Shown piece by piece: positions 1 to 21,831 of a stretch of 22,224 nucleotides of DNA. The stretch is taken from positions 1-22,224 of IMG/VR virus record IMGVR_UViG_3300046817_000931; one strand, 5' to 3'. Below the pieces are notes generated by a model. The model ran no database searches, was not told where the DNA came from, and was given only the letters and a program-made list of their open reading frames with translations. The position numbers were made by a program, and so were the translations under genes. Every line of letters begins with the position of its first letter. The first letter of the stretch is position 1. This DNA is from a virus.

Positions 1-451
1 CGTTGGCGGCGGCGGAGGCGGTGGCGTCGGCAGCGTGGGCGGCGTTGGCGGCGGCGTTGGCGGCGGCGTCGGCGGCGTGGGCGGCGGCGTAGGCGTAGGC
101 GTAGGCGGCGTGGGCGAACTCGCCGTTCTCGTAACCGCGCGCCACACGCTCGATAGCCTCGCGGCACTTCCATTTATCGACGGTGATCGCCGGAAGGGCC
201 ACGTCCCGCAGCAACCAAACCGCGAACCGCGGCCACACTTCAGCCAGATCGCGGGTGGGGTCAACGGCGACAAGGAACTTCGGCAGGAAATCGGGAACCT
301 CGCGCCCGACGCGCTTCGCCACTGCGGCGAGTTGGCGCGGCAGCGGCGGGTCGAACGCATCGACCAAGGGAACGCCGTCCTGCCCGGTGAGCCGCGCGCC
401 GACGATGCGGGCGATGAACCGCTCACGGTCTGTCGGTTCGGCGGCGATCAT
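1..451 (-). CDS. Ala-rich repeat protein, C-terminus cut by window edge
   Basis: Reading leftward from an ATG at 451, the frame stays open to base 1, giving 150 residues with no stop, so the gene is partial. Residues 1-112 look like an ordinary globular domain (MIAAEPTDRERF..., with a Trp/Phe-rich stretch near 73-80). From about residue 113 it becomes a low-complexity run of Ala pairs or triplets separated by His, Tyr, Asp or Asn. In DNA this is a GCC-rich triplet repeat covering roughly 1-118. The start overlaps the stop of the upstream gene as ATGA, which supports translational coupling. Similar Ala-x-Ala-Ala tails occur in phage and prophage proteins of unknown role; I cannot name a function. 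Opposite-strand frames through this segment are Gly/Arg shadows. Confidence 0.75.
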   Translation of the reverse strand, partial: MIAAEPTDRERFIARIVGARLTGQDGVPLVDAFDPPLPRQLAAVAKRVGREVPDFLPKFLVAVDPTRDLAEVWPRFAVWLLRDVALPAITVDKWKCREAIERVARGYENGEFAHAAYAYAYAAAHAADAAANAAANAAHAADATASAAAN

Positions 452-936
452 GCTGCTTCGTCCATGCAAAAGGCGAGCGTGTCGCCTTGGGTGTCGTCCG
501 GTTTGCGCAGGTCAAAGACTTCCGGCGTGGTCCCGGCGCGGCGCTTCGCGACCAAGAACCCGCGGGTGACGTGCCACACAAGGGCCGTCCAGTCGGGCAT
601 GCGGACCCACAGGCCCATCTTCCGCTTGGCGACGCGGTACGCCTTGACGGTGGGTTCCAGATCAGGCGCCCCCATCTTCGCAGCGGTTATCAGCGCGCGC
701 TCCGCGTGCCGCCACCGCTCCCGAATCTCAGCCGCCTTCACCGCTGCCGTCTTGGTGCCGGCCTCTATCTCGGCGCGGCGTTCGGGCGGCAGCCGGCGTT
801 CATATCCTCGCACCTTGGCGCGCAATTCCTTGATCGCCTTCTCGGCGGCGGCCTTGCGCTTCTCGGCTCGGGCGAGCGCCGCGACGGCGATACGGTAGCG
901 GGTCGCCTGCGGGTCGCTGCGCTTGCGGTGCTTCAT
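448..936 (-). CDS. Basic, probably coiled-coil hypothetical protein (162 aa)
   Basis: The chosen start gives MKHRKRSDPQ and overlaps the stop of the upstream gene by ATGA; a longer reading frame to 999 would overlap that gene fully. Residues 17-60 are rich in Ala, Lys, Arg and Glu with heptad-like spacing and probably form a coiled coil. The second half (about 100-135) contains several Trp and hydrophobic residues and looks folded. The high positive charge would suit nucleic-acid binding, but no motif supports it. It is the third of four small genes downstream of the DUF3150-like gene and is probably co-transcribed with the MoxR cassette. Function unknown. Confidence 0.75.
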   Translation of the reverse strand: MKHRKRSDPQATRYRIAVAALARAEKRKAAAEKAIKELRAKVRGYERRLPPERRAEIEAGTKTAAVKAAEIRERWRHAERALITAAKMGAPDLEPTVKAYRVAKRKMGLWVRMPDWTALVWHVTRGFLVAKRRAGTTPEVFDLRKPDDTQGDTLAFCMDEAA

Positions 937-1103
937 TGCAGCGCCCCCCGGATAGCGTTCAGCGTCTTTATCGCCTCGTTCAGTTCCAGCATGAGCCACA
1001 GGATCGTCCCGTCCTTCTCGGTCTTGGGGTTGCTGAGAAGCTGATTGACGATATCTCGGGCCGACATGGCCCGCGGGTCTCTGCGCTTCCGGCGGCCCTT
1101 CAT
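933..1103 (-). CDS. Small hypothetical protein (56 aa)
   Basis: This short frame is bounded by overlaps on both sides: its ATG at 1103 overlaps the preceding stop, and its TGA (935-933) overlaps the next ATG as ATGA. The product starts with a basic segment MKGRRKRRDPRAMSA that resembles the MKHRKRSDPQAT start of the downstream gene. A Leu-rich helix follows (LWLMLELNEAIKTLNAI). The shared basic N-termini could reflect an old duplication or a common DNA-binding tail; that is inference. The overlaps are the main evidence that it is real. Confidence 0.65.
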   Translation of the reverse strand: MKGRRKRRDPRAMSARDIVNQLLSNPKTEKDGTILWLMLELNEAIKTLNAIRGALQ

Positions 1104-1291
1104 GACCGGCCCTCCAGCACCTTTAGCCGCCGGTCGATCGAGTCGATGGCGCGGTCAACCGCCATCTCCACCGGGCGGTTGCCGGCTTCGTGCGCCGCCT
1201 GCTGCGCGAACAGCAGTTCATAGCGGCGGATGCGCAGGTCAAGCCGGGCGTCGTCCATCGAGCGCGCGTTGTCGAGGTAGGGGCTGGTCAT
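1100..1291 (-). CDS. Small hypothetical protein (63 aa)
   Basis: The start MTSPYLDNARSMDD was chosen because a GGAG lies about 8 nt upstream, inside the end of the preceding gene, with only 5 nt between that gene's stop and this ATG. The stop overlaps the next start by 4 nt. The protein is a charged amphipathic helix throughout (DARLDLRIRRYELLFAQQAAHE, AVDRAIDSIDRRLKVLE) and ends LEGRS. It may be a small helical adaptor or oligomerising protein. It belongs to the operon downstream of the MoxR and DUF3150-like genes. No family recognised. Confidence 0.7.
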   Translation of the reverse strand: MTSPYLDNARSMDDARLDLRIRRYELLFAQQAAHEAGNRPVEMAVDRAIDSIDRRLKVLEGRS

Positions 1292-1296
1292 TGCCC

Positions 1297-2199
1297 CTAC
1301 TCCGCCGCGAGGGCGCTGCCGCCCGTGTATCCGGCCATCATATCGAGGATGCGGGCACAGTCGGCGGCTTGGGCGGCCCGCAGCGTATCGTTGTCTCGCA
1401 GGTCTTGCGGCTCGGCGGCGCACAGCTTATCGGCCATCAGGCGCCGCACGGACTCCAAGGCCGGATCGTCCCCGATATTTAGCTTCGCCATCAGCGCCAC
1501 CATGTCGCGCATGTTCTCGACGAGGCTATCGCGGAACGGGTTTTTCGCCTTGGTCCCGTCTGCCGCCGGCTCATAGTTGGCGAGGCGGTCGTGCATGTGC
1601 GCCACGGTCTGCTGCACCCGATCCCACAGCGAGCGCACCGCGCCCGCGACGGCCGCGTTGACGCTGGCGGTTATCTCGTCCCGAATGCGCGCTTCCTCGG
1701 CATCACCGAGTTGCACCCGGAAGTCCTTCGCGTCGGGCAGCGGCATCACGTCGATTTCGGAGCGGATCGAGGCGGCCAGCTTCTCGGCCTCGGGATAGTC
1801 TTCCTCCCGGTACAGGTCGCCGAGCTTCGCCTTGCGGGCCTCCTTGGCGGCATCGTAGGACGCCACCAGCTTGTCCCGCTCGCGGTGCAGGGTCGAGACC
1901 AGCCGCTTATGTTCGGCCATGTAGTCGAAGTAATTCGCGGCCGGCAGCAGCGCGACGCCGGTTATCGTCCACGGCAGGGTATTAGCGTCGTGGTGCTTTC
2001 GGATCGCGTTCACCGCCGACTCGACGCCGGCCAAGTGCTCGCGGTCGATCAGCAGCTTGTTGAACCGGCCGGCGTCGGCCGCGGCGTTGTTGATTTCGGC
2101 AATTTCGTTCGAGGCGTCGCGGTCCAGTTTCCGAGCCGTCCAGCGGCTTACGGAGAGTCGCACGAGCATCGCGCGAGAGGTCAGGCTGTGGTCGGTCAT
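1297..2199 (-). CDS. DUF3150-like protein, partner of MoxR-type ATPase
   Basis: The 300-residue product closely follows the pattern I know from DUF3150 proteins: an N-terminal LVRLSVSRWTARKLD block, then DAGRFNKLLID, then HDANTLPWTITGVALLPAANYFDY near residues 89-112, the LGDLYREEDYP segment, LPDAKDFRVQLGD near the middle, and FRDSLVENMRDMV before a helical C-terminus. The biochemical role of DUF3150 is not established. It is commonly encoded next to a MoxR-type AAA+ ATPase in phages, exactly as here, where the ATPase gene ends about 30 bp upstream. The start at 2199 is preceded by the CCCACCGAAAGG box, so this gene may be translated independently of the ATPase. The family call rests on remembered sequence pattern, not a search. 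Confidence 0.8.
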   Translation of the reverse strand: MTDHSLTSRAMLVRLSVSRWTARKLDRDASNEIAEINNAAADAGRFNKLLIDREHLAGVESAVNAIRKHHDANTLPWTITGVALLPAANYFDYMAEHKRLVSTLHRERDKLVASYDAAKEARKAKLGDLYREEDYPEAEKLAASIRSEIDVMPLPDAKDFRVQLGDAEEARIRDEITASVNAAVAGAVRSLWDRVQQTVAHMHDRLANYEPAADGTKAKNPFRDSLVENMRDMVALMAKLNIGDDPALESVRRLMADKLCAAEPQDLRDNDTLRAAQAADCARILDMMAGYTGGSALAAE

Positions 2200-2208
2200 G
2201 GTTCGGTC

Positions 2209-2222
2209 CCTTTCGGTGGGGG
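2209..2222 (-). promoter_or_regulatory. CCCACCGAAAGG box before the DUF3150-like gene
   Basis: On the minus strand this reads CCCCCACCGAAAGG and ends 9 nt before the ATG at 2199. The purine part (GAAAGGG) serves as the Shine-Dalgarno. The CCCACC part upstream of it is shared with boxes before the genes starting at 3543, 4385, 7094 and 9806, so it is more than a ribosome binding site. Confidence 0.6.
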
Positions 2223-2229
2223 ATTTGAT

Positions 2230-3249
2230 CTACAGCACCACGTCGGTATTGGCCGACGCCCAGGTGATGAAGCTGCGGGTCGGCAAGAGGCTGGCGTCCC
2301 GCTTCGTCGCGAGCGACACCACGAGAACCTCATATTCCTTTTGCAGCCGCTCGGCGTAGACCAGCGCCCGGTCGATGTTGTTCGGCGTCATCCGGTGCGC
2401 CAGGGCCGCGCTGATGGCGCAGCACGCCGCCGGCTCTTTCGGGACGGGCGCGCCTTTCGGATCGAGCAATATCTGATCGACGCTGACCATCTCGCGGAAG
2501 ACCCGCATGAACGCCACCATTTCGGTAGCGACGCCCTCGCCCACGGTGCCGCACAACAACTCGTGTTCCAGCCCCGGCGGCGCCGACTCGATGATGTCGG
2601 AGGCGAACACCGCCGTGCGCGGGCAGGAATACGGTTCAGCCTTCCGCGGGTCGAACGTCGTAAACAGGTCCGGCTTGAACTGGTAGAAGGCGATCACTTC
2701 GGTTTTCACGCCGGCGTTGAGCGCCCATTTCGTCCAGTCGGCAAGGTCCGGCTCCACCACCACCCGCGTCCAGCGTCCGATCAGCGGCATCGGGATTCGC
2801 TGCGTCGCGGCCCGGTCTTCGTCGCGGTTGCCGGTCGCCATGACGTACCACCCTGCCGGAAGCCGGTAGGCGCCGAGTTGGCCGTGCAGGAACAGGTCGT
2901 AAAGCCCGGCCTGCACCATCGGCGGCGCCGTGTTGATTTCGTCAATGCAGATGATGCCCTCGCCCGCGACCGGCAGCTTGTCGGCGAAGGGCAGAAACAC
3001 GGCATGATCGGCATAGCGCTGCTCGATGTCGTCCATCACCATCGCGCGAGCGGGCAGGCCCGAAAGCGTGATCGGGTCTTCGATCGTCGCCTGCCAGGAC
3101 CGGAACTCGATGCCGAGCCGGTTCGCGGCGGCGCGCGGTGCGTCGGATTTGCCGATGCCGGGTTGCCCCTGCGCGAACAGCGGCCGGCGCTTCTCGGGCG
3201 GCTGGCGGTACTGCGCCACGATGGCGTCAATCAGAGAGGATATTTTCAT
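2230..3249 (-). CDS. MoxR-type AAA+ ATPase
   Basis: A 339-aa AAA+ protein. Walker A is GQPGIGKS (residues 28-35), Walker B is IICIDEI (99-105, with D103 and E104). The sensor-1 region is MATGNRDED (N141), and a likely arginine finger is R159 in IGRW. The layout matches MoxR/AAA_5 proteins, chaperone-like ATPases that remodel a partner, often a von Willebrand A or metal-binding protein. Here the obvious candidate partner is the DUF3150-like protein just downstream. Walker A is followed by Asp instead of the usual Thr/Ser, a mild oddity. The start at 3249 follows a GGAGG and lies 3 nt after the preceding stop. Its role in the phage is not known; cytoplasmic. Confidence 0.9.
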   Translation of the reverse strand: MKISSLIDAIVAQYRQPPEKRRPLFAQGQPGIGKSDAPRAAANRLGIEFRSWQATIEDPITLSGLPARAMVMDDIEQRYADHAVFLPFADKLPVAGEGIICIDEINTAPPMVQAGLYDLFLHGQLGAYRLPAGWYVMATGNRDEDRAATQRIPMPLIGRWTRVVVEPDLADWTKWALNAGVKTEVIAFYQFKPDLFTTFDPRKAEPYSCPRTAVFASDIIESAPPGLEHELLCGTVGEGVATEMVAFMRVFREMVSVDQILLDPKGAPVPKEPAACCAISAALAHRMTPNNIDRALVYAERLQKEYEVLVVSLATKRDASLLPTRSFITWASANTDVVL

Positions 3250-3252
3250 GGC

Positions 3253-3543
3253 TCAGCCCTCCGCAACACGAAGGGCGCGTTCAGCGTTTAGCGACTCCTC
3301 GTAATCGTCAAACCACACGTAGAACGCTTCCGTTATCAGCGCGTCGAGGTCGTCGCCAACGATGCACCACGGGCCATTGCTGCCGTCCTCGGTCGGCAGT
3401 TCATCGTCGCCATAGTCCTCCGCAACCATGTACCGGCCGGGGTAGTTGGTGTTGATGCCGCGCGGGTCGCGCTCGCCGATGCGAAATCCCATCGCGTCGA
3501 GGTAGGCGCGCTTCTGATCAAGCGGGCTGTCTATGCTGAACAT
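3253..3543 (-). CDS. Acidic hypothetical protein (96 aa)
   Basis: A strongly acidic small protein (MFSIDSPLDQKRAYLDAMGF..., EDYGDDELPTEDGSNGPW, WFDDYEESLNAE) with a regular alpha/beta look. It is the first gene of the MoxR operon: upstream is the intergenic region 3544-3739, and downstream the MoxR start is 3 nt away. Its ATG at 3543 is preceded by the CCCACCGAAGGG box, and 56 nt upstream by a minus-oriented copy of the 17-bp intergenic motif. Function unknown; its position suggests it belongs to the same process as the ATPase. Confidence 0.75.
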   Translation of the reverse strand: MFSIDSPLDQKRAYLDAMGFRIGERDPRGINTNYPGRYMVAEDYGDDELPTEDGSNGPWCIVGDDLDALITEAFYVWFDDYEESLNAERALRVAEG

Positions 3544-3550
3544 CGTCTTT

Positions 3551-3563
3551 CCCTTCGGTGGGG
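3551..3563 (-). promoter_or_regulatory. CCCACCGAAAGG-type box before the gene starting at 3543
   Basis: Minus-strand sequence CCCCACCGAAGGG, 7 nt before the ATG. It carries the Shine-Dalgarno GAAGGGA and shares the CCCCACCGAA part with the boxes at 2209, 4396 and 3669. Confidence 0.55.
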
Positions 3564-3598
3564 TAAAATTTCAACCGCGATCAGGATACGCGCATGAT

Positions 3599-3615
3599 GC
3601 AGCAAAGTGCAATAC
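3599..3615 (-). promoter_or_regulatory. 17-bp intergenic motif, copy 1
   Basis: Minus strand GTATTGCACTTTGCTGC, matching 14 of 17 positions of the copy at 9767. It points toward the gene that starts at 3543. It may be a phage promoter element or repressor operator; the sequence alone does not decide. Confidence 0.5.
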
Positions 3616-3627
3616 CTAATCCGCCGC

Positions 3628-3644
3628 GTGTTGCATTATTTTGC
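3628..3644 (+). promoter_or_regulatory. 17-bp intergenic motif, copy 2
   Basis: Plus strand GTGTTGCATTATTTTGC, 15 of 17 identical to the copy at 9767. With copy 1 it forms a divergent pair separated by 12 bp. No plus-strand gene follows; instead a strong hairpin with a T-rich 3' side begins 40 bp downstream. Confidence 0.5.
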
Positions 3645-3668
3645 GATGGTGGGTAGGCTGCGCGCGTT

Positions 3669-3680
3669 CCTTCGGTGGGG
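3669..3680 (-). promoter_or_regulatory. Orphan CCCACCGAAGG box
   Basis: Minus strand CCCCACCGAAGG, the same box as before several genes, but here no start codon follows at a suitable distance. It sits between the hairpin at 3685-3731 and the 17-bp motif pair. This may be a remnant of a lost gene or a sign that the box has a role beyond translation. Confidence 0.4.
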
Positions 3681-3684
3681 ACAT

Positions 3685-3731
3685 GCCCCCGCGCTCCCGG
3701 ACCTCAACCAGCCGGGCACACGCGCGGGGGC
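3685..3731 (+). terminator. Strong GC-rich hairpin, likely terminator
   Basis: A perfect 10-bp inverted repeat, GCCCCCGCGC (3685-3694) and GCGCGGGGGC (3722-3731), encloses a second 5-bp stem CCCGG/CCGGG. On the plus strand it is followed by TTCCGCTTTTAG, so the intrinsic-terminator polarity fits plus-strand transcription best. It also lies just past the stop of the minus-strand gene at 3740 and could end that transcript too. Confidence 0.6.
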
Positions 3732-3739
3732 TTCCGCTT

Positions 3740-4054
3740 TTAGGGTTCGGCTTCCGGGTCGTCTATGCCGCGCCACGTCGCATAGGCGGCGTTGCCCTTC
3801 AGCACGTTCGGCGCGGCCCATAGCAAAAGTCCTTGGCCGATGCTGTACAGCCATGTTGGGCGCGAATCCCACGCCATCCCGTCTCGCGAAGGCTGCATGA
3901 CGGCAAACCCGCGCACGGTGCGCACGCGAAGCGGGGGCGAGCGGCCGCCCCCGTACACCCGAATAACGAAACCACCGCACAGTGCGGCAACAGCCCGCAG
4001 CGTCGCGATGGCCTCCCGCTCGCTCAGGCGCGCGGGGGCGGGCGCATCGTTCAT
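3740..4054 (-). CDS. Hypothetical protein (104 aa)
   Basis: The chosen start (MNDAPAPARLSEREA) overlaps the stop of the small membrane gene upstream as ATGA. A helical N-terminus is followed by a beta-rich part (GGFVIRVYGGG, LRVRTVRGFAVMQPSRDGMAWDSRP) and a Trp-containing segment YSIGQGLLLWAAPNVLKG near residues 70-87. It is the last gene of a three-gene minus-strand unit (4385 to 3740) and ends 9 nt before a strong hairpin. No family recognised. Confidence 0.6.
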   Translation of the reverse strand: MNDAPAPARLSEREAIATLRAVAALCGGFVIRVYGGGRSPPLRVRTVRGFAVMQPSRDGMAWDSRPTWLYSIGQGLLLWAAPNVLKGNAAYATWRGIDDPEAEP

Positions 4055-4149
4055 TGCTGCCACCCGCCCGAGAAGATCGCCACGAACAGCGCGGCCAGCG
4101 CCATGCCGGCGACGATGCCGACGATGGCGCAGCCGTGCCGCGGTTTCAC
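4051..4149 (-). CDS. Tiny single-span membrane protein (32 aa)
   Basis: This frame starts with GTG at 4149, overlapping the upstream stop as GTGA, and ends with TGA overlapping the next ATG. It therefore fits exactly between its neighbours. The product is VKPRHGCAIVGIVAGMAL followed by more hydrophobic residues and SGGWQQ: a short basic N-terminus and one transmembrane helix of about 20 residues. Such mini-proteins are common in phages and may act on the membrane or as lysis or exclusion peptides; nothing here decides which. Evidence is the double overlap plus the clear membrane segment. Confidence 0.6.
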   Translation of the reverse strand: MKPRHGCAIVGIVAGMALAALFVAIFSGGWQQ

Positions 4150-4385
4150 CGGCAAGCCCGATAGGCTTTGACGCAATCCAACAGGTTGCGGGCGCAGGTC
4201 CGCGCCTCGGCCTTTGTCTCGTAATCGTCGCGCCAGTAGAACGCGAGCGATACTTCGGTGCCATCGGTGCGGTCGTACCCACGCACGCGAGGCGCCCAGG
4301 CGCCCGGCCCGCCCGCAATGACGATATGCGGCTTGTCCGCGGCTTTCGCGTATTCGGTGAAGGTGACTAGGCTCAAATCGAACAT
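4146..4385 (-). CDS. Hypothetical protein (79 aa)
   Basis: MFDLSLVTFTEYAKAADKPH is followed by a Gly/Pro-rich turn (GGPGAWAPRVRGYD) and an amphipathic helical C-terminus with two Cys (ARTCARNLLDCVKAY). The start is supported by the CCCACCGAAAGG box ending 10 nt upstream. It opens a three-gene unit whose junctions are GTGA and ATGA overlaps. Function not recognised. Confidence 0.7.
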   Translation of the reverse strand: MFDLSLVTFTEYAKAADKPHIVIAGGPGAWAPRVRGYDRTDGTEVSLAFYWRDDYETKAEARTCARNLLDCVKAYRACR

Positions 4386-4395
4386 GGTTTCGTTT

Positions 4396-4407
4396 CCTTT
4401 CGGTGGG
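4396..4407 (-). promoter_or_regulatory. CCCACCGAAAGG box before the gene starting at 4385
   Basis: Minus strand CCCACCGAAAGG, followed by AAACGAAACC and the ATG. This is the cleanest copy of the box. A small perfect inverted repeat, CGGCGC/GCGCCG (4416-4432), straddles the upstream gene's stop just before it. Confidence 0.6.
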
Positions 4408-4422
4408 ATACCGGACGGCGCC

Positions 4423-4872
4423 CTATGCGCCGCCTTCTTTCAGCCACGCAACCGCCGCGGCTGTTTCGTCAGGGAATAGCTCCCCAAATTCCTCAACCAA
4501 GCCACGGATGATCCGCTCCGCCGTGGCCAGCCGTACCGCGGCATCGGCACGCGCGCGGGCGGGCGGGATCACTAACCGGGTCTGAGTCGCCACCGGGGCC
4601 TCGCTGGTAAGCGAAAGCGGCGGCGCGGTATATGGGACGGCGCGCGGCGTTACCGCGTCGAGGGCGCCCGTGGCGCGCGCGGTGTACCAATCCCGATAGC
4701 GAGCTTCCGCCAGCGCAGCGCCGGCCAACTCGCCGGCGGCATCCTCTATCGCCGCGGCCGTCATCGCGCGCCGCGTCTCCGAACCGTCGCCGAACAACGG
4801 GAACCGCTGCGGCGCGGCCATCGCGCGCGTGTGCGACGCGCGGGCCGTCGCGAGCCAACGGCCGCCGGTCAT
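4423..4872 (-). CDS. Ala-rich hypothetical protein (149 aa)
   Basis: The ATG at 4872 overlaps the stop of the 256-aa upstream gene as ATGA. The protein is Ala/Arg-rich. It has a helical middle (ETRRAMTAAAIEDAAGELAG), a Pro/Thr-rich linker (TPRAVPYTAPPLSLTS, about residues 74-89), and a helical C-terminus with an acidic EEFGELFPDE stretch. The linker between two helical parts suggests two domains. It is probably co-expressed with the second AAA+ cassette. Function unknown. Confidence 0.65.
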   Translation of the reverse strand: MTGGRWLATARASHTRAMAAPQRFPLFGDGSETRRAMTAAAIEDAAGELAGAALAEARYRDWYTARATGALDAVTPRAVPYTAPPLSLTSEAPVATQTRLVIPPARARADAAVRLATAERIIRGLVEEFGELFPDETAAAVAWLKEGGA

Positions 4873-5639
4873 TGCCGAACCTCCCGCAGCTTGGCTATCT
4901 GTTCATTCACCCATGCGACGGGCTGGTCTATCATCGGATCGGAAGCCCGCGCAGCGCCGATTACCAAATCCGCCGTGGCGCGAAGCGCGTCATCGGCCGC
5001 CGGCGCGAAACTCAGTCCGCACCGCTTCCGGCCGAAATGATGGTGGCGCGACAGGTTGTAGCAAAGGCGGCGCGCAAATCCTGCCGATGTCAGTGCATAG
5101 GCGGCCGTTGCCAAGTCTAGCGGTTGCGTGTTGATCGCCGCGACGATAACCGACTCGGCATCGTCATCGGCAACCGCGCAATACACGCTCAATTCAACCT
5201 GCCGGATGCGCGACAGTGCGATTACCAATGCCAGCACCGCGCAACCGCGGCGCATGAGCGTATCGGCATCTAGTGTCATGCTCGCCGCGACGGAGCACAA
5301 AATCCGCACCGGCGATTCGTCGTGTTCCACGGTATCGCGGCGGCGCATGCAATCCGGCATGCCGGCCAAAAAATCCGGAACTACCGCATAGGCGCCGGCG
5401 CAGTCGGCAATCCATGGCCGCTCAGAAACGTCTATCTCGGCGCTGATCTGAGACAGCAACCGTTCGGCATCGGCAACGCGCGACGGATCGCCATTGATTG
5501 CCTTCGCGATGCTCTCGGCTGCTGTCTCATGCCCAAAATAGGCGCCGCCCAAGCCCGACAGCGACAAGTGGAACGGATTGACCGCTTGCGCGTCGCGCGC
5601 CAGCGATGCAACCGAGGGATAGCGCTTTATCTGTTCCAT
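4869..5639 (-). CDS. Phage protein paired with AAA+ ATPase (DUF7192-like)
   Basis: A 256-aa protein downstream of the second AAA+ gene; the GGGAGG Shine-Dalgarno lies in the 12-nt gap before the ATG at 5639. The arrangement PWIADCAGAYAVVPDFLAG, then MPDCMRRR, then a hydrophobic strand (VRILCSVAASM), then a helix with ...RRGCAVLALVIALSR, then PLDLATAAYALTSAGFARRL, matches a phage family that I recall as DUF7192; the family name is from memory and uncertain. The alternating strands and helices resemble a Rossmann or VWA-like fold, which would be a natural client for a MoxR-type ATPase, but no MIDAS motif (DxSxS) is visible. Inferred role: substrate or partner of the AAA+ protein. Confidence 0.7.
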   Translation of the reverse strand: MEQIKRYPSVASLARDAQAVNPFHLSLSGLGGAYFGHETAAESIAKAINGDPSRVADAERLLSQISAEIDVSERPWIADCAGAYAVVPDFLAGMPDCMRRRDTVEHDESPVRILCSVAASMTLDADTLMRRGCAVLALVIALSRIRQVELSVYCAVADDDAESVIVAAINTQPLDLATAAYALTSAGFARRLCYNLSRHHHFGRKRCGLSFAPAADDALRATADLVIGAARASDPMIDQPVAWVNEQIAKLREVRQ

Positions 5640-5651
5640 GTTGCGCCCTCC

Positions 5652-6899
5652 CTACGCTACCGCTTGCCACTGGTCAGCGCTCATGCCTTTGCGCAGCGCC
5701 ATGGCGATTACCGTGTCGCGGTCCAGACCAGCGGCCAACAGCGCCGCGCCCTGATAGGATGCACGCGGCGAGATCAGGGCGCGCGCGATGCCGTGTTCAT
5801 TGACGCGGCGCCGAACCGCTTGCACGTAACCGCACCAATCCGTGTTGGGGCAGGTCGCGGTTTCCAGCGATTCGTCAATTTCCCAAGCGATCGGCACAAA
5901 GCGGTCCAAAAACGAAATGTCGAGTTTCGCGCGGCCCGTGTATTGATCGGTCGCGCCATGGCCGAACGTGTTCGCTGCTGCGAGAATCACGCAATCGGGA
6001 TGCCGGTCAACTGAGCCATCCGGAAAATCGCAATGCCCGTTCGATGTCGCGGCGTTGAACGCCAGCAGGGCGCCCGGTAGGCTCGCGTCAAGCTCGTCAA
6101 ACAGATAAACGCCACCATGCTCGTACGCATGCCGAAACGGCCGCGACACGATACGACCCTGCGCATCCGTAAAGCCCAGCAGTTTGTATTCGTTGTCGAT
6201 GGCGCCATTGAAATAGAACGGCAAACCCAGCGCTTTCGATACCATTTCGGCTGCGGTCGTCTTGCCGCTGCCGGCCGTGCCTACCAGCAACACGTTAAGC
6301 CGGTTCCCGGCATGGTCGCGCGCCGCGCATGCTCGCAGCAGCGTTTCGAATTGCCGATGCTGCGTTCCGATGTTGCGCCGCTCCCCCGTCTCGGGAACCG
6401 TCACCACGATTTCATGCTGCCGCGGCTTGGGCGCATGCTCACGGATCAATTCGATTACGCGCGCTTCATTGATCGCGCCGGCGGCAAGGGTCTGTATCAG
6501 CGCGGCAAGCTGCGCCGCGGCATCGCCGGGCGCCGCTGCTATCGCGGGAACCGTTGTCGCTGGCGTGGCCGCAGGAAGCGGCGCGGTATATTCCTGCGCC
6601 GACAGCATAGCATCGCTATGCGCCGGCATCGCGGCCGCCAGCATGTCGCCGGCTTCCTCGCTCGATGCCGGCAACGCCACGCCATCCCGCAAATGCGACA
6701 GCACGGCCGCGAAATACTTTTCGCGATTGTAGCACTTCCAAAGCGTGGCCAGCTTCATTGCCTTCGCGCGTGCACTCGGCACGCCATTGGCAACCAGCCA
6801 GTTCTGCACCAAGCCGCGGTTTGCGGTCGTGACAGCCGTGGCGCCGCGCGGCCCGATCTGGGCCTCTAATTCGGCGGCATCGTATGACGCTACTCGCAT
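5652..6899 (-). CDS. AAA+ ATPase (MoxR/CbbQ-like), second copy
   Basis: A 415-aa protein. Residues 1-160 form an N-terminal extension that includes an Ala/Pro-rich linker (about 100-135). The AAA+ core follows: Walker A GTAGSGKT (207-214), Walker B VYLFDE (264-269), sensor 1 in AAANTFGHG (N310), and a probable arginine finger R333 in FLDRF. It differs from the MoxR protein at 2230-3249 in size and in its long N-terminus, so it is not a recent duplicate. The start at 6899 follows GGAGG with normal spacing, 3 nt after the previous stop. It probably remodels the downstream 256-aa partner. A/T-ending codons seem commoner here than in the 1297-3249 cassette, which hints at separate acquisition. 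Confidence 0.88.
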   Translation of the reverse strand: MRVASYDAAELEAQIGPRGATAVTTANRGLVQNWLVANGVPSARAKAMKLATLWKCYNREKYFAAVLSHLRDGVALPASSEEAGDMLAAAMPAHSDAMLSAQEYTAPLPAATPATTVPAIAAAPGDAAAQLAALIQTLAAGAINEARVIELIREHAPKPRQHEIVVTVPETGERRNIGTQHRQFETLLRACAARDHAGNRLNVLLVGTAGSGKTTAAEMVSKALGLPFYFNGAIDNEYKLLGFTDAQGRIVSRPFRHAYEHGGVYLFDELDASLPGALLAFNAATSNGHCDFPDGSVDRHPDCVILAAANTFGHGATDQYTGRAKLDISFLDRFVPIAWEIDESLETATCPNTDWCGYVQAVRRRVNEHGIARALISPRASYQGAALLAAGLDRDTVIAMALRKGMSADQWQAVA

Positions 6900-6902
6900 C
6901 GC

Positions 6903-7094
6903 TCAGACCTCCAAAACGATGCGATCGCAACGCGCGCGATCGTAGACGTTCCACCACGATTGGCTGCCCCAATACTCAGGGTCATCGCTGATAAACGCGA
7001 TCATCGCATCGCGCACCATGCCGCGCAGCTTGTCGCCGCTGATCTCGCGATCTAGCCAAGCGTCCAGATGACGGATTGTGTAGGTATCGAGCAT
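6903..7094 (-). CDS. Small hypothetical protein (63 aa)
   Basis: MLDTYTIRHLDAWLDREISG... to RCDRIVLEV. It is an acidic, Trp-rich small protein (PEYWGSQSWWNVYDRA). It is the first gene of the leftward operon that leads into the second AAA+ cassette. The start is set by the CCTACCGAAAAGGA box about 9 nt upstream; frames extending to 7238 have no such signal and would cross the regulatory region. The gap to the AAA+ start is 3 nt. Function unknown. Confidence 0.7.
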   Translation of the reverse strand: MLDTYTIRHLDAWLDREISGDKLRGMVRDAMIAFISDDPEYWGSQSWWNVYDRARCDRIVLEV

Positions 7095-7103
7095 CGGATC
7101 ATT

Positions 7104-7117
7104 CCTTTTCGGTAGGG
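7104..7117 (-). promoter_or_regulatory. CCCACCGAAAGG-type box before the gene starting at 7094
   Basis: Minus strand CCCTACCGAAAAGG, 9 nt before the ATG. It is a variant of the 12-bp box with T for C in the CCACC part and one extra A; it supplies AAAAGGA as the Shine-Dalgarno. Confidence 0.5.
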
Positions 7118-7168
7118 AACCATAAAAATCAACCGTCGCCACAATGACGGATGCCGCGCCTATGTGCA

Positions 7169-7185
7169 ACAGAAAAATGCAATAC
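7169..7185 (-). promoter_or_regulatory. 17-bp intergenic motif, copy 3
   Basis: Minus strand GTATTGCATTTTTCTGT, 15 of 17 identical to the copy at 9767. It lies in the divergent gap between the leftward operon (start 7094) and the rightward regulator gene (start 7237), so it could control either or both. Confidence 0.5.
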
Positions 7186-7236
7186 CCCGAACGCCGCTGT
7201 TGACGCCACGCAACGCTTTGCGGGATACGGGACGCC

Positions 7237-7638
7237 ATGCTTACCGCTGATCAGGTCCGCGAAATCATTCGGGACGAAATGCCCCGGAAGCGGCGCCGCG
7301 GCATCGACCGCGATAGCTCCAGACCACAAGTGATCTGCCGCGTGCTCCCGGAAGAAATCGGCCTAATCGACGCCGCAGCCGAGCAACGCGGCGTCACACG
7401 CTCCCAATTTCTGCGCGATGCTCTCTCAGCGGCTATCGGAACGGAACTGCAACCGAGGCAGCCAATCCCCCCCGGTCTGCGCCGCTCAACGTCCCGGAAA
7501 ACCGATGACGCCATGTCTGCCGCATTGCATCAGCGGCGTGTCCTGCGCGCAGCGTCCGCGGCCATTGTGGAACCTGTTGTCGGGCAAGCCCCTGGCGTTC
7601 CCGTCCCGAAACTTCGCGGCCCCTCGCGTCCCGAATAG
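7237..7638 (+). CDS. Ribbon-helix-helix-like DNA-binding regulator (133 aa)
   Basis: Residues about 30-66 have the shape of a ribbon-helix-helix (CopG/Arc-type) domain: a short strand (QVICRVLP), a helix (EEIGLIDAAAEQRG), and a second helix introduced by a turn (VTRSQFLRDALSAAI). A basic N-terminus (PRKRRRGIDRD) precedes it. A Pro/Arg-rich, poorly structured tail of about 65 residues follows. It is transcribed divergently from the AAA+ operon, and a copy of the 17-bp motif lies in the shared promoter region. It is thus a candidate repressor of that motif. A TTGACG (7200-7205) 18 nt before GATACG could be its promoter. The RHH call is from pattern only. Confidence 0.6.
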   Translation: MLTADQVREIIRDEMPRKRRRGIDRDSSRPQVICRVLPEEIGLIDAAAEQRGVTRSQFLRDALSAAIGTELQPRQPIPPGLRRSTSRKTDDAMSAALHQRRVLRAASAAIVEPVVGQAPGVPVPKLRGPSRPE

Positions 7639-7675
7639 ACGGCCGTTCCCGTCCCGTTCGAACGCGCAAACCCGA

Positions 7676-7703
7676 ATGTCGCATAAGATGTATTCTGGAA
7701 AAT
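7676..7703 (+). other. dif-like site (candidate XerC/XerD recombination or attachment site)
   Basis: The 28 bp split as ATGTCGCATAA, GATGTA, TTCTGGAAAAT. Compared with the E. coli dif arms, the right seven bases of the XerC arm (CGCATAA) are identical and 8 of 11 of the XerD arm (TTATGTTAAAT) match, with the same 6-bp spacer length. Phages and elements that integrate by host Xer recombinases carry such sites and need no integrase; none is seen in this window. The match could be chance. Alphaproteobacterial dif sequences should be compared directly. Confidence 0.35.
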
Positions 7704-8085
7704 CGGTCTGTAAGCCGTTGATTTATCGTGCGCGATTGTGACGACCGCGACATTGGCCGCTAATGGGACGGTCTGAAATCAACATCTTGTGCTCGGTCTG
7801 TACCCCCGCGTGACCCTCCCCCGGTCCCGTATGGCCCCGCCGCCGCCTCGGTTCGAGCCGAGCATCTGGACGGCGATTCTCAGAAACCGGAGCTGCATCG
7901 TCTTTGGTTTTTTTCTCCCCGGCTGCCTTTTCAAGCCCGGTTCGAGCGCGTTTTTCCTCTCCTATTCACCCTATGGAGTTCTAGGAGGAGGGTTTAGGGG
8001 TTTACGGTGTCTCTTAAGGGGAGAGGTATGGTCTAGGAGTGTCCATTGGTGAGGACTGTTGTGAGGGCATAGGAGGTCAGTCCCC

Positions 8086-15363: not shown

Positions 15364-15974
15364 TCCGCCGACTGATCCTGTGCGGCCCGTACACCCCGGA
15401 GGAAGCCCGCGCGGCGACGGCGATGGCGGGAAAGATGGTCGGCGGTAGCGGCGAGGAAATCGTCTACCGGGCCGCGCCGACCGAGCGCCGCATCGTGATG
15501 TTCCAATCGGGCACCATCTCGTTCCACTCGACCGGGCATCGCCGCGGCTTTGCGCGGATTCTCGACGATCCTACCGCGCAATCTCTGGCCGTGGTCAACG
15601 CGGCGGTGATCAAGGGCGAACCGGTCATCAACGTCTACACTGGCCTGGAGCGTGACGGCGAGATATACGCCTATTCAGGAACCGATGCGGTTCTGACGTT
15701 CGGCTTTCCGGACGGGGCCGGCGTGGCCTATTTCCATCGGAGCGCTGGCGGGGTAGCGCCGGGGGTCGCGGCACAATGCCTCTGGTTCGTCCATGGGGCG
15801 AGAAGCTCGCCGGTGTTTATGCCGCAAATGCGGGAACTGCTGGCCCTGCGTGACGGCGTGCGGTTCTCGTTCGTCAAACGCAAACCCTTCGGCTGGCAAG
15901 CCGGGCGGCAACTGGCAATCGAGCACGCGCGCTCGGTGCTCGCCGCATCTCTGGAGAGGTTCGGGCTGACTTAG
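15360..15974 (+). CDS. Hypothetical protein (204 aa), last gene of the rightward operon
   Basis: Begins at GTG 15360 (GTGA overlap with the previous stop; a TTG at 15357 is the alternative). It has a well-folded look: VIRRLILCGPYTPEEA, repeated strand pairs (ERRIVMFQSGTISFHS, PVINVYTGLERDGEIYAYSG, AVLTFGFPDGAGVAYFHRS), and a helical C-terminus (GRQLAIEHARSVLAASLERFG). I do not recognise the family. Its TAG overlaps the TAA of the convergent portal gene by 3 bp (shared TTAG), with no terminator between them. Confidence 0.7.
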   Translation: MIRRLILCGPYTPEEARAATAMAGKMVGGSGEEIVYRAAPTERRIVMFQSGTISFHSTGHRRGFARILDDPTAQSLAVVNAAVIKGEPVINVYTGLERDGEIYAYSGTDAVLTFGFPDGAGVAYFHRSAGGVAPGVAAQCLWFVHGARSSPVFMPQMRELLALRDGVRFSFVKRKPFGWQAGRQLAIEHARSVLAASLERFGLT

Positions 15975-17818
15975 TGCGCGGCGGAGCGGGACGGCTTCTT
16001 GCCGGTGAGCGCCGCGATCCGCGCATCCGGCGGCAACGACTCGATCATCGCCGCCTTGTTCGCATCGCGGGTCTCGATGTCGGCGATGATCGCCTCGGCC
16101 TGCGGCGGGTTCAGCAGCCGCACCAAATCCTCCGCCGTGATCGCGCCTCGCGATGCCAGCAGCATCGCCACTTCGCGCGCTTCCTTGCCGAAGATCGGCG
16201 ACGACGAATGGCTGTCCACCGAAACGCGATAGCGATCATCGACGTGGTGCATCTGGAACGGTAGTGCCGTCAGGCCGGGCGCCGGCGGTTCGTACACCAG
16301 CGGGTCAAGCTCGCTGCCCTTGAACGGACCCGATTCGGACTGCTTGATCCAAAGCACATGCTGGCTCGGGTCGTAGGCCCGCATCAGATCGAGCGACAGC
16401 CCGCCGAGTTCTTCGATCTGCCGCTCCAGCGTGATTGCGCGATCCTTGAACCGCGGCGAGGCCATGCGCACCAGCGTCTCGGCGTGGCCTTGCGCTCGCA
16501 CCCCCGATTCGCCCTGCCCCTGCAACACCGCCGGATAGCCGCCGGTGTCGTCGAACATGCCGATCAGTTCGTGCAAACTCTCCCACAGCCCGGCCGGCAG
16601 GTCCGGCGTCATCTTCTCGACTTTGACCGCGCCGCCTTGCTCGGTGTGGTAGCCGCCCGGCCGGCGCAGCGTCGCTTTCATCTTCGACGCGGTGGAGGTC
16701 GCGCCGGTGATCAGCCATGACGGGTCTTCCTGCCGCCGCAGCAGCCGGTTGATCCCGTCCACCCGGTTGTTGATCGCGTCCTGAAGCGCCTGGACGACGT
16801 AAACCTCCGACAGCCCCCAAAAATAGTCGGGGACGGGGTTCGGGCAGATTTCGATAAACGGGTGATGGCCGCTCAGCGGATTGCGTTCGTCGTTGGCCGC
16901 GGCCCGCCGGATGCGGCGTGCCCGCTGTGGCGCCGGGTTGCCGTCCGCGAACAGGTTGCGGAACTGGCCGACCGGCTCGATGACGGTGTTGCCGACGAGT
17001 TGGATCGTCACCCAATCGTCGTTGTGCCGGTCCCATACCCAAAGCTCGTCGAGCCGGATCAGCTTCGCCTCGGTGGTCGAATCGAGTTCCGGGGTTGGCG
17101 CGTTGAGCCATGACACTAGCCCGCGGCCCTGCCCGGCGCCCGCGCTGCCCGACACGCGGTAGGGGTAAAGCTGGCCGCCGATGATGACCTGCCGGCTGTT
17201 GTCGGCGGCATCGGGGCGATCCAGCTTGTCGGACGACACGTATTTCCGGATGTCGCGGATAATCTCGTCGCGGCGCGGGTTGTTCTGGATCAGGTCCGCG
17301 AACCGCGCCTCGGTGAACCACGTCGAATGCGTGAAGGCGTCTTGCAGATCGAGCCGCGGCAGGTCGTCCCGTAAGACGCCCATCGTTTCGGGCTGCACCA
17401 TGTACGCCTGAAGCCCGCGGGCATAATCCAGTTGCAGGAAGGTCTTGCCCTTCACCAGCGACCACTTCACCGCGTCAACGGCGGTGATATCGAGGTTGCC
17501 GGCGCGGAATTTCTCCAGCAGCACTTGCGAGGCGGAGCGGCCCATCGCCCGGTCTCGCGGGCCGGCCGGGCCGTAGGGCATGACGGTGAACCGAAGCTCG
17601 CTCGGCGAATACAGCATCGCCGCCAGCGTCTCGATGTAGGCGTAGGTTTTGCGATAGGTCTGCGCTTCGCCGCTGGCGGCGCCGGTCAGGTAATAGTTGC
17701 GGTATGCGGCGCCGCGCTGGCGGCGGGTCTCCAGCGATGAGTGGCACGCCTCGACGATTTCCAAGGCCCAATTCCCGAGCTTTTCGCGGGCGGTCGGGAT
17801 CGTGAGGATGGATGCCAT
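15971..17818 (-). CDS. Portal protein, on the minus strand
   Basis: A 615-aa portal (head-tail connector). The start MASILTIPTAREKLG at 17818 is set by the ATGA overlap with the upstream gene. Recognisable features are a helical clip/stem layout, ETLAAMLYSPSELRFTVMP (63-81), WGLSEVYVVQALQDAINNRVDGINRLLRRQEDPSWL (334-369), KATLRRPGGYH (381-391) and TLERQIEELGGLSLDLMRAYDP near 463-484. Portals form the dodecameric ring that terminase docks on. The oddity is orientation: terL before it and the capsid genes after it are on the plus strand, while this gene and four small partners run leftward. I am confident of the family from pattern, not from a search. Confidence 0.85.
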   Translation of the reverse strand: MASILTIPTAREKLGNWALEIVEACHSSLETRRQRGAAYRNYYLTGAASGEAQTYRKTYAYIETLAAMLYSPSELRFTVMPYGPAGPRDRAMGRSASQVLLEKFRAGNLDITAVDAVKWSLVKGKTFLQLDYARGLQAYMVQPETMGVLRDDLPRLDLQDAFTHSTWFTEARFADLIQNNPRRDEIIRDIRKYVSSDKLDRPDAADNSRQVIIGGQLYPYRVSGSAGAGQGRGLVSWLNAPTPELDSTTEAKLIRLDELWVWDRHNDDWVTIQLVGNTVIEPVGQFRNLFADGNPAPQRARRIRRAAANDERNPLSGHHPFIEICPNPVPDYFWGLSEVYVVQALQDAINNRVDGINRLLRRQEDPSWLITGATSTASKMKATLRRPGGYHTEQGGAVKVEKMTPDLPAGLWESLHELIGMFDDTGGYPAVLQGQGESGVRAQGHAETLVRMASPRFKDRAITLERQIEELGGLSLDLMRAYDPSQHVLWIKQSESGPFKGSELDPLVYEPPAPGLTALPFQMHHVDDRYRVSVDSHSSSPIFGKEAREVAMLLASRGAITAEDLVRLLNPPQAEAIIADIETRDANKAAMIESLPPDARIAALTGKKPSRSAAH

Positions 17819-18012
17819 CAGCCGAGCCAGTGGCGCGTGATGTGCGCGACCGCGTGCCAAGGGACGATCTGTTCCTCCGCGGGGCCTTCTCTGAAATAGC
17901 CGTTAGCGATTGTTGCGCGGAGCCAATCGCCGAAAGTTCCTGCGGGGATACGTATGCCGTGCGCGTCGCCGCCGAAGCGATGAATCATGATCGTTTCAGT
18001 TTCTCCGGCCAT
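17818..18012 (-). CDS. Small hypothetical protein (64 aa) upstream of portal
   Basis: MAGETETIMIHRFGGDAHGIRI..., then a Trp/Phe-containing middle and EEQIVPWHAVAHITRHWLG. It follows the zinc-ribbon gene by 3 nt, and its stop overlaps the portal start. Codons are less GC-biased than in the portal gene. It is probably co-translated with the portal; role unknown. Confidence 0.6.
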   Translation of the reverse strand: MAGETETIMIHRFGGDAHGIRIPAGTFGDWLRATIANGYFREGPAEEQIVPWHAVAHITRHWLG

Positions 18013-20763: not shown

Positions 20764-21831
20764 GTGGCGTATCCTTCGACCTTTCAAGCTCCAGCAACTG
20801 TCGGTGGGCTAACCCCCGGCGGCCAACTTGGCGCACAGTTGGCCGCGATCACCCGCCGGGCGGTTATCCCCTCGGTGTTCGTCCAGATTTACCAGTCGCA
20901 CCCGCTGCTGAGCCTGCTGTGGCAGAACGCGCAGCGTGCGAAGGGCGGCGTCGGTCAGGTCGTGATCCCGACGCAGGGCGCCTCGTTCGTGTCGTTCTCG
21001 TGGGGCAGCTTCGCCGGCGACTTCCCGATGCCGGAAGACGTGGCGGCGATCCAGAACGCAACCTTCAACCTGAAGATCGGCATGGTGCCGATCGGCTTCT
21101 TCGGGTTCGAGGCGCTGGTGCAGTCGAGCGAGGTCATCATCCCGAAATTGCGGGCGGTCACGTCCGACGCGGCGGTGGTGATCAAGCAGGCATTCGCGCA
21201 GTCGTTGTATTCCAACAACTACGCCACGCCGAACGCGCTGGATTCGCTGGCGCAAGCCTACGACAACGGATCGAATGTCCCGGCCTACGGCGGCATCACC
21301 CGGTCGGGCGCCGCATGGTGGCAGGGCCAGTATCTCCCGAACCTAGCGGGGATTTCGAACCGCACCGGCATGGCGATCACGCAGACCCGCGTGGCGACCG
21401 GCGCCGGCGGCGATGCACCCGATTTCGCGGTGATGAACCCCGCCGATTGGTCAACCGTGCTGGCCGATTTCATGGGCTATGAGATGTACCAGTCTCGCCC
21501 GCGGTCGCAGTACGGCAAGGACGATCCGCAGAACGCCGGTTTCCGCGCGCTGCGGGTGCTCGACACGCCGATCTTCCCGGACCCGTTCTGTCCGCGCGGC
21601 GAGATGTACATGATCAACAGCCGGTATCTCTCGCTGTTCGTCAGCGAATACACGGCGCCGATGGTGTTTTCGGGCTTCGAAAGCGCCATCCCGCAGGGCC
21701 AGATCGCCGAAATCGGCGTGCTGATCTCGGCTCTGAACCTGATCTGCTCGAAACCGAGTTCCGGCGCGCACATTACCGGCCTGTCCGGCGCAGCGTGGCC
21801 GAACACCCCCGGCCCGCCGGCCGTCCTGTAA
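20764..21831 (+). CDS. Major capsid protein (probable)
   Basis: Starts at GTG 20764 after AGAGGAGG (spacing 7-8). The 355-aa product MAYPSTFQAPATVGGLTPGG... has the alternating hydrophobic strands typical of phage major capsid proteins of this size: SHPLLSLLWQNAQRAKGG, GQVVIPTQGASFVSFSWGSFAGD, an extended FNLKIGMVPIGFFGFEALVQSSEVIIPKL, and later DFAVMNPADWSTVLADFMGYEMYQSR, NSRYLSLFVSEYTAPM. No protease cleavage site is evident. It forms the HK97-fold icosahedral shell with the scaffold just upstream. Assigned by context and pattern. Confidence 0.8.
   Translation: MAYPSTFQAPATVGGLTPGGQLGAQLAAITRRAVIPSVFVQIYQSHPLLSLLWQNAQRAKGGVGQVVIPTQGASFVSFSWGSFAGDFPMPEDVAAIQNATFNLKIGMVPIGFFGFEALVQSSEVIIPKLRAVTSDAAVVIKQAFAQSLYSNNYATPNALDSLAQAYDNGSNVPAYGGITRSGAAWWQGQYLPNLAGISNRTGMAITQTRVATGAGGDAPDFAVMNPADWSTVLADFMGYEMYQSRPRSQYGKDDPQNAGFRALRVLDTPIFPDPFCPRGEMYMINSRYLSLFVSEYTAPMVFSGFESAIPQGQIAEIGVLISALNLICSKPSSGAHITGLSGAAWPNTPGPPAVL

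Follow-up and report, generated by a model that had tools for sequence, protein, structure and literature searches.

Two unlike ATPase gene pairs in the left arm

The stretch of DNA analysed here is the whole of the IMG/VR virus record IMGVR_UViG_3300046817_000931 (22,224 bases, in the following called the window). Its left arm of about 7.2 kb is encoded entirely on the minus strand; to the right of it are genes that are likely structural and one resembling a terminase gene. In the direction of transcription the arm contains the genes for a CobS-type AAA+ ATPase, a DUF7192 protein, a protein of 149 residues, small proteins, a MoxR-type AAA+ ATPase, a DUF3150-like protein, two further small proteins and an alanine-rich protein whose gene is cut by the window edge. 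The MoxR ATPase and its partners are referred to as module 1, the CobS-type ATPase and DUF7192 as module 2.

A sequence-only reading of this DNA had described two dissimilar AAA+ ATPases, each with a partner of its own. This arrangement was confirmed: all four reading frames are open, start with ATG and lie at the expected coordinates, namely 5652-6899 for the module 2 ATPase (415 residues), 4869-5639 for DUF7192 (256 residues), 2230-3249 for the module 1 ATPase (339 residues) and 1297-2199 for the DUF3150-like protein (300 residues). Six ATG-initiated open reading frames (ORFs) of at least 250 residues are present in positions 1-7300 when all frames are considered; in 200 shuffled sequences the mean was 0.165 and the largest number two. 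The counts of promoters and terminators were the same as in the shuffles.

The module 1 ATPase is of the N4 gp24 type (phrog_1297, E 1.4e-70), and midasin is the top match of its profile in the PDB (6.8e-17), in line with the MoxR clade to which it had been assigned. The module 2 ATPase, with a variable N-terminus and the AAA core at residues ~180-410, belongs to the CobS family (phrog_249, E 4e-45). Its profile finds midasin (2.7e-47), CobS (3.8e-13), NorQ (5.7e-8) and CbbQ (3.5e-7) in the PDB. Walker A and B motifs are present in both ATPases (GQPGIGKS/IICIDE and GTAGSGKT/VYLFDE for the two). Compared with each other, they gave a BLASTP E value of 0.11 and a profile-profile probability of 96.8%, the latter for the AAA core only. 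Thus they represent different families, and a simple duplication, which the sequence-only reading had also discounted, was rejected.

Module 1 and the metallopeptidase-VWA gene beyond the window edge

An overlapping contig, L010, is 99.84% identical to the window over 1866 bases and extends 6.2 kb further. Its next gene (L010 positions 2030-3229) lies 164 bases beyond base 1 of the window; the product has 399 residues and two Pfam domains: DUF2201_N, a putative metallopeptidase with the motif HEAMH (E 1.9e-55), and DUF2201, a von Willebrand factor type A (VWA)-like domain with the motif DTSGS (E 3.3e-22). The start of this gene is overlapped by the stop of the alanine-rich gene, and the gene order is identical in a related record, L215. 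The protein belongs to phrog_1314, together with N4 gp25-like proteins. Module 1 reaches past the left edge of the window, and the usual partner of the N4 gp24-type ATPase is this metallopeptidase-VWA gene, which the edge had concealed and the sequence-only reading had left out.

An ATPase of the phrog_1297 type is matched in 763 phage records. In N4-like phages the metallopeptidase-VWA gene comes next after MoxR or, in some cases, one gene further on. In Synechococcus phage MinM2, one small gene separates MoxR from DUF3150, and three more stand between DUF3150 and a VWA-like gene. To quantify this linkage, two sets of loci were counted, with the reservation that these are loci and not independent events, some being near-copies of one virus. 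The first set comprised 78 DUF3150 loci from viral contigs, not counting L009, L010 and L014, which belong to the same population as the window. MoxR was found in 69 and DUF2201 in 64 of them, throughout on the same strand; where at least 4.5 kb was available on either side, both numbers were 38 of 41 (misses: L077, L086 and L087). The second set was the best 80 of 285 confirmed MoxR loci. DUF2201 was present in 71 of these and in all 37 with 4 kb on either side, DUF3150 in 23 and in 11 of the 37. These counts indicate that the ATPase and the metallopeptidase-VWA protein are the core of the module and DUF3150 a frequent accessory. Counts of Walker motifs and of the metal ion-dependent adhesion site (MIDAS) by regular expression are rough, as strict Walker A was matched in just 31 of the 54 ORFs of the first MoxR table.

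The DUF3150-like gene begins 30 bases past the ATPase stop. Its label derives from homology to a protein so annotated in MinM2 (tblastn, 30% identity, E 2e-24); Pfam yielded no model at cut-off for either protein (none at E<=1 for the window protein, none at E<=0.1 for that of MinM2). The AlphaFold2 model, based on 62 sequences (predicted local distance difference test, pLDDT, 92.0; predicted template modelling score, pTM, 0.84), suggests a small N-terminus of alpha/beta type, a pair of ~42-residue helices and a C-terminal part that is also helical. The best Foldseek match had an E value of 0.13, and neither a VWA nor a peptidase was among the matches. The rows of a second structural comparison were for the most part helical bundles (Z up to 9.7), a kind of match that is uninformative for helical models, and included no VWA or peptidase either. 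The idea that DUF3150 is itself a VWA or metallopeptidase was therefore dropped, with room left for families absent from the listing, as was a kinship of DUF3150 with DUF7192 (hhalign 0.2%). We propose that DUF3150 is a helical third component of module 1, possibly an adaptor or scaffold.

Three further genes on the minus strand lie between DUF3150 and the off-window gene: one for 63 residues (1100-1291), one for 183 residues from a GTG or 162 residues from the ATG at 936 (448-999), and the truncated alanine-rich gene (1-469). The latter is complete with 211 residues in L010 (1398-2033) and L009; it consists of AAN/AAY units encoded by strongly repetitive DNA and matches phrog_18326 (E 2.6e-5). 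Further along L010, on the opposite strand, the ORF at 5514-7202 matches radical SAM below cut-off, and that at 6533-8014 encodes a DnaB-type helicase. The element CCCACCGAAAGG occurs, with at most one mismatch, on the minus strand at window positions 2209-2220, 3551-3562 and 4396-4407, 7-10 bases upstream of three start codons. In the window 0.15 occurrences are expected, and it is present in neither L010 nor L215. Could these copies be a repeated leader containing a ribosome-binding site?

PHROG and the RefSeq record of phage PEV2 call the phrog_1314 protein an HNH endonuclease. This name for a metallopeptidase-VWA family, like 'porphyrin biosynthesis' for the CobS-type ATPase family phrog_249, seems wrong.

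The CobS-type ATPase and its DUF7192 partner

In module 2 the DUF7192 gene (phrog_1909) begins 12 bases past the ATPase stop. The protein matches the Pfam family DUF7192 (PF23822) with E 3.1e-14 and 53.4 bits, compared with a gathering threshold of 27. The pair is widespread. DUF7192 was found in 26 of 31 CobS loci (25 in the locus scan; L117 was added by Pfam), which together with the 38 of 41 DUF3150 loci containing MoxR shows that the adjacency on which the sequence-only reading relied is not sporadic. In a second scan all 11 closer CobS loci contained DUF7192, ten of them next to the ATPase and one, L224, at a distance of ~6.4 kb. It is also located downstream of the ATPase in ten of ten annotated phage records, i. 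e. Sinorhizobium phiM5, Mycobacterium LeBron, Tunturiibacter Tunturi_4, Rhizobium P106B and RHph_X2_24 (in the latter DUF7192 was assigned by alignment only), Staphylococcus 812, Alteromonas PT11-V19, ct52p938, crAss-like cr118_1 and Listeria LP-013. Two small genes intervene between ATPase and DUF7192 in the two rhizobial Rigallicvirus phages among these, and in L105 the order is inverted. Two DUF7192 genes per locus were seen in L004 and L101 (LeBron and one viral contig).

The five phrog_249 loci without DUF7192 (L119-L123) form a separate branch, and the three of them that were scanned (L119, L121 and L123) adjoin sliding-clamp and clamp-loader genes. Four of the five encode instead a protein of 720-800 residues with a DxSGS motif, CobT-like and of the cyanophage type (L119:810-3203, L120:1-2274, L121:1742-3910 and L123:285-2552). 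Neither Pfam nor the PDB yielded a match for these four proteins. In their alignment HExxH and DxSGS are invariant, and therefore the combination of an AAA ATPase with a peptidase-VWA protein may recur in the CobS family. Around HExxH they show a weak N-terminal likeness to DUF2201 (hhalign 4%, E 0.011).

The AlphaFold2 model of DUF7192, based on 24 sequences (pLDDT 83.9, pTM 0.80), has as its first two PDB rows in Foldseek the VWA domain of NorD from the NorQ complex (9qh8_G, E 0.062) and the MIDAS domain of Rea1 (6qta_A, E 0.13). The first six rows of a second structural comparison were all NorD or Rea1: the NorQ-bound NorD VWA domain (9qhd_G) aligned with Z 8.4 over 186 residues at 4.4 A, covering 1-253 of the model, and the Rea1 MIDAS domain (6qt8) with Z 7.5 over 177 residues at 4.2 A. 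Sequence identity to NorD is 8-13%. Most of the remaining rows listed, aligned mainly from about residue 105, were other VWA or I-domain proteins. In the BFVD database, phage VWFA and CobT models rank right after the DUF7192 family itself (E 2.3e-4, 3.6e-4, 4.8e-4 onward). This ranking adds weight to a VWA fold, as do the profile of the ATPase, which is blind to the partner and finds midasin, CobS, NorQ and CbbQ, and the VWA metal motif that occupies the partner slot elsewhere. Most likely, DUF7192 is a VWA domain closest to the VWA partners of MoxR-clade ATPases, NorD and Rea1. Of the VWA or metallopeptidase folds that were to be looked for in both partners, a VWA fold is predicted for DUF7192, and neither was among the matches of DUF3150; in module 1 both domains are contributed by the one off-window gene.

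The MIDAS position of DUF7192 is degenerate in the window (S116-V-A-A-S120), not the DxSxS of a CobT. Of 46 aligned DUF7192 sequences, 12 have an aspartate at the first MIDAS position and 5 the complete D-x-[ST]-x-[ST]. G82, G93, P95 and M98 rank among the most conserved positions, G82 and P95 occurring jointly in 43 of the 46, and this segment directly precedes the first core strand. The finger of NorD (residues 403-448), which inserts into the pore and is required for iron insertion, is likewise located early in its VWA domain (336-638), which is rotated by the ring (PMC13036017 and PMC9976466). DUF7192 may have retained ring docking and altered its way of holding the target.

Several points weigh against this assignment. 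The Foldseek E value is only 0.062, and a best Z of 7-8 is common among models without a true match, so Z alone is not decisive. No VWA was found in the PDB profile search with DUF7192, and hhalign gave 1.3% against DUF2201 and 0.1% against the cyanophage-type CobT-like proteins. The MIDAS is complete in just the five sequences mentioned, while in NorD MIDAS mutants retained NorQ binding and lost target activity (PMC9976466). Finally, the position of a finger in DUF7192 is one that we infer.

A protein of 149 residues (4423-4872, minus strand) is a possible further module member. Its gene overlaps the DUF7192 stop by 4 bases, and in L215 its position is conserved with 53% identity.

Co-occurrence, proposed role and relation to known systems

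The combination of the two modules is rare. Among 43 other CobS-type records tested, only L215 contained both: DUF2201 was found in none of 32 (controls 6 of 6) and in one of 11 further records (controls 2 of 2). Conversely, DUF7192 was found in none of 37 MoxR/DUF3150 records (controls 6 of 6) and in none of 40 more (controls 2 of 2). Many of the records searched are fragments. The CobS profile gave six short matches in the 37 records (E 9e-8 to 2e-4), which because of their length we attribute to cross-matching of different AAA proteins, for instance MoxR.

L215, a record of 63,956 bases, is colinear with the window and encodes CobS, DUF7192, MoxR, DUF3150 and DUF2201 in the same order, with protein identities of 69%, 45%, 74%, 59% and 59%, respectively. 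The differences at codon positions 1/2/3 were 0.24/0.17/0.49 for CobS, 0.36/0.32/0.57 for DUF7192, 0.24/0.16/0.47 for MoxR, 0.26/0.22/0.53 for DUF3150 and 0.29/0.27/0.53 for DUF2201. As positions 1 and 2 have changed less than position 3, all five genes have been maintained as proteins. Outside the left arm, a likely capsid-type protein (20764-21831) is 92% identical to its L215 relative, the terminase-like gene 59% and the gene at 15971-17860 61%. Perhaps this uneven divergence reflects recombination or strong constraint.

We interpret the locus as two independent remodelling modules of a tailed phage, each pairing a MoxR-clade AAA+ with a VWA protein, which would use ATP to remodel or assemble phage or host complexes, and give this reading a probability of roughly 70%. 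In module 2, a hexameric ring like that of CobS, NorQ or midasin would pair with DUF7192, a small VWA domain. Its conserved segment G82-M98, in the place of the NorD finger, would most likely dock it on the ring. By analogy with NorQD and Rea1, ATP hydrolysis would then twist or pull whatever the VWA face of DUF7192 holds. As the MIDAS is mostly lost, the target would be gripped without a bound metal. In module 1, the N4 gp24-type ATPase would act together with the off-window DUF2201 protein, with DUF3150 as a helical adaptor or scaffold; since this VWA bears a metallopeptidase domain, remodelling may be coupled to cleavage. The purpose we favour is the assembly or remodelling of a phage complex, which is less certain than the reading as a whole.

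A much less probable explanation is that one or both modules are conflict systems that serve anti-defence, host takeover or superinfection exclusion; MoxR might, for instance, arm DUF2201 as a regulated protease. MoxR-vWA ternary systems have been proposed as bacterial conflict systems (PMC7159879), and the PADLOC model of IetA matches the CobS-type ATPase with E 3e-8. However, this match is confined to the AAA core, and the four proteins scanned gave no match to a protease model; for MoxR and DUF3150 there was no match to any defence model, and the best E value for DUF7192 was 0.0039. Early or middle expression of homologues, as noted in the PEV2 record and for the middle genes 24 and 25 of N4, would suit such a role, yet these genes are core in N4-like phages (PMC4193335 for both statements on N4), unlike patchy conflict genes.

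It is unlikely that module 2 is metabolic, i. e. a phage CobS/CobT pair that lends itself to the host cobalt chelatase CobN for vitamin B12 synthesis. The ATPase does belong to the CobS family, and this role has been proposed for viral CobST (PMC8651126). But DUF7192 has just 256 residues and mostly lacks the MIDAS, the ATPase profile is nearer to midasin than to CobS, and in the part of the window ORFs that was scanned no gene of cobalamin metabolism came to light. The vitamin B12 or porphyrin function implied for module 2 is thereby weakened. Equally improbable is the suggestion of the sequence-only reading that DUF3150 and DUF7192 are clients activated by the two ATPases: the strict gene adjacency and the habit of NorQ-type ATPases to act on a dedicated target encoded close by speak for it, but DUF7192 is predicted to be a VWA co-chaperone, and DUF3150, which has no VWA or peptidase fold match, is not an obligate client because it was not found in 26 of the 37 MoxR loci with DUF2201 and 4 kb on either side.

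If the remodelling interpretation holds, an ATP-driven machine dedicated to remodelling is present in many phages, and its substrate could be found with existing laboratory phages. A cryptic von Willebrand-type domain in DUF7192 would account for the pairing of the two genes across many widely differing phages. The gene that adjoins an ATPase of doubtful name in several well-studied groups of phages thereby gains a testable fold and partner. Tentatively, and with more doubt than belief on our side, the phrog_249 ATPase and DUF7192 could be a minimal, phage-wide 'split midasin' without metal-dependent adhesion that has been mistaken for part of porphyrin or B12 metabolism in staphylococcal, listerial, mycobacterial, rhizobial and crAss-like phages. 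Phages would then usually carry either this pair or MoxR-DUF2201 as alternatives for related jobs, and the present lineage both.

The function of such pairs had been thought undescribed. This does not hold for the ATPases with their usual partners: a MoxR and metallopeptidase-vWA pair with a proposed role in virion assembly is described for jumbo phages in PMC7824862, which also cites a MoxR-vWA system that an archaeal virus requires to assemble its tail. CobS/CobT pairs of phages have been reported in PMC8651126 and PMC9503304. Our literature search returned nothing on DUF3150 or DUF7192, and nothing joining N4-like phages, or phage porphyrin biosynthesis and CobS, with von Willebrand.

Like the jumbo-phage pair and N4 gp24/gp25, module 1 combines, on one strand and in one cluster, a phrog_1297 MoxR-clade ATPase having both Walker motifs with a DUF2201_N-DUF2201 partner (phrog_1314), i. 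e. a neighbouring vWA protein with an N-terminal metallopeptidase, as seen on L010 and L215. It differs from them by the addition of DUF3150 and intervening small genes and by a partner outside the window. Module 1 is therefore of a known kind, with a third component not found in the literature searched.

Module 2 shares with phage CobS/CobT the phrog_249 ATPase and an adjoining partner gene, but this partner is the short DUF7192, mostly without MIDAS, and not CobT. With NorQ/NorD of denitrifiers it shares an ATPase profile that finds NorQ and a partner whose model is nearest to the NorD VWA domain, though DUF7192 lacks the N-terminal domain of NorD and its MIDAS is degenerate. Unlike midasin/Rea1, in which AAA ring and MIDAS domain are united in one giant chain, it consists of two small genes, is assumed to form a homohexamer and has no link to ribosomes; still, the top match of the ATPase profile and the second-best fold of the partner are this same protein. 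The assignment of DUF7192 was not found in the literature searched, and module 2 would be new in joining a CobS-type ATPase to a cryptic, mostly MIDAS-less VWA partner.

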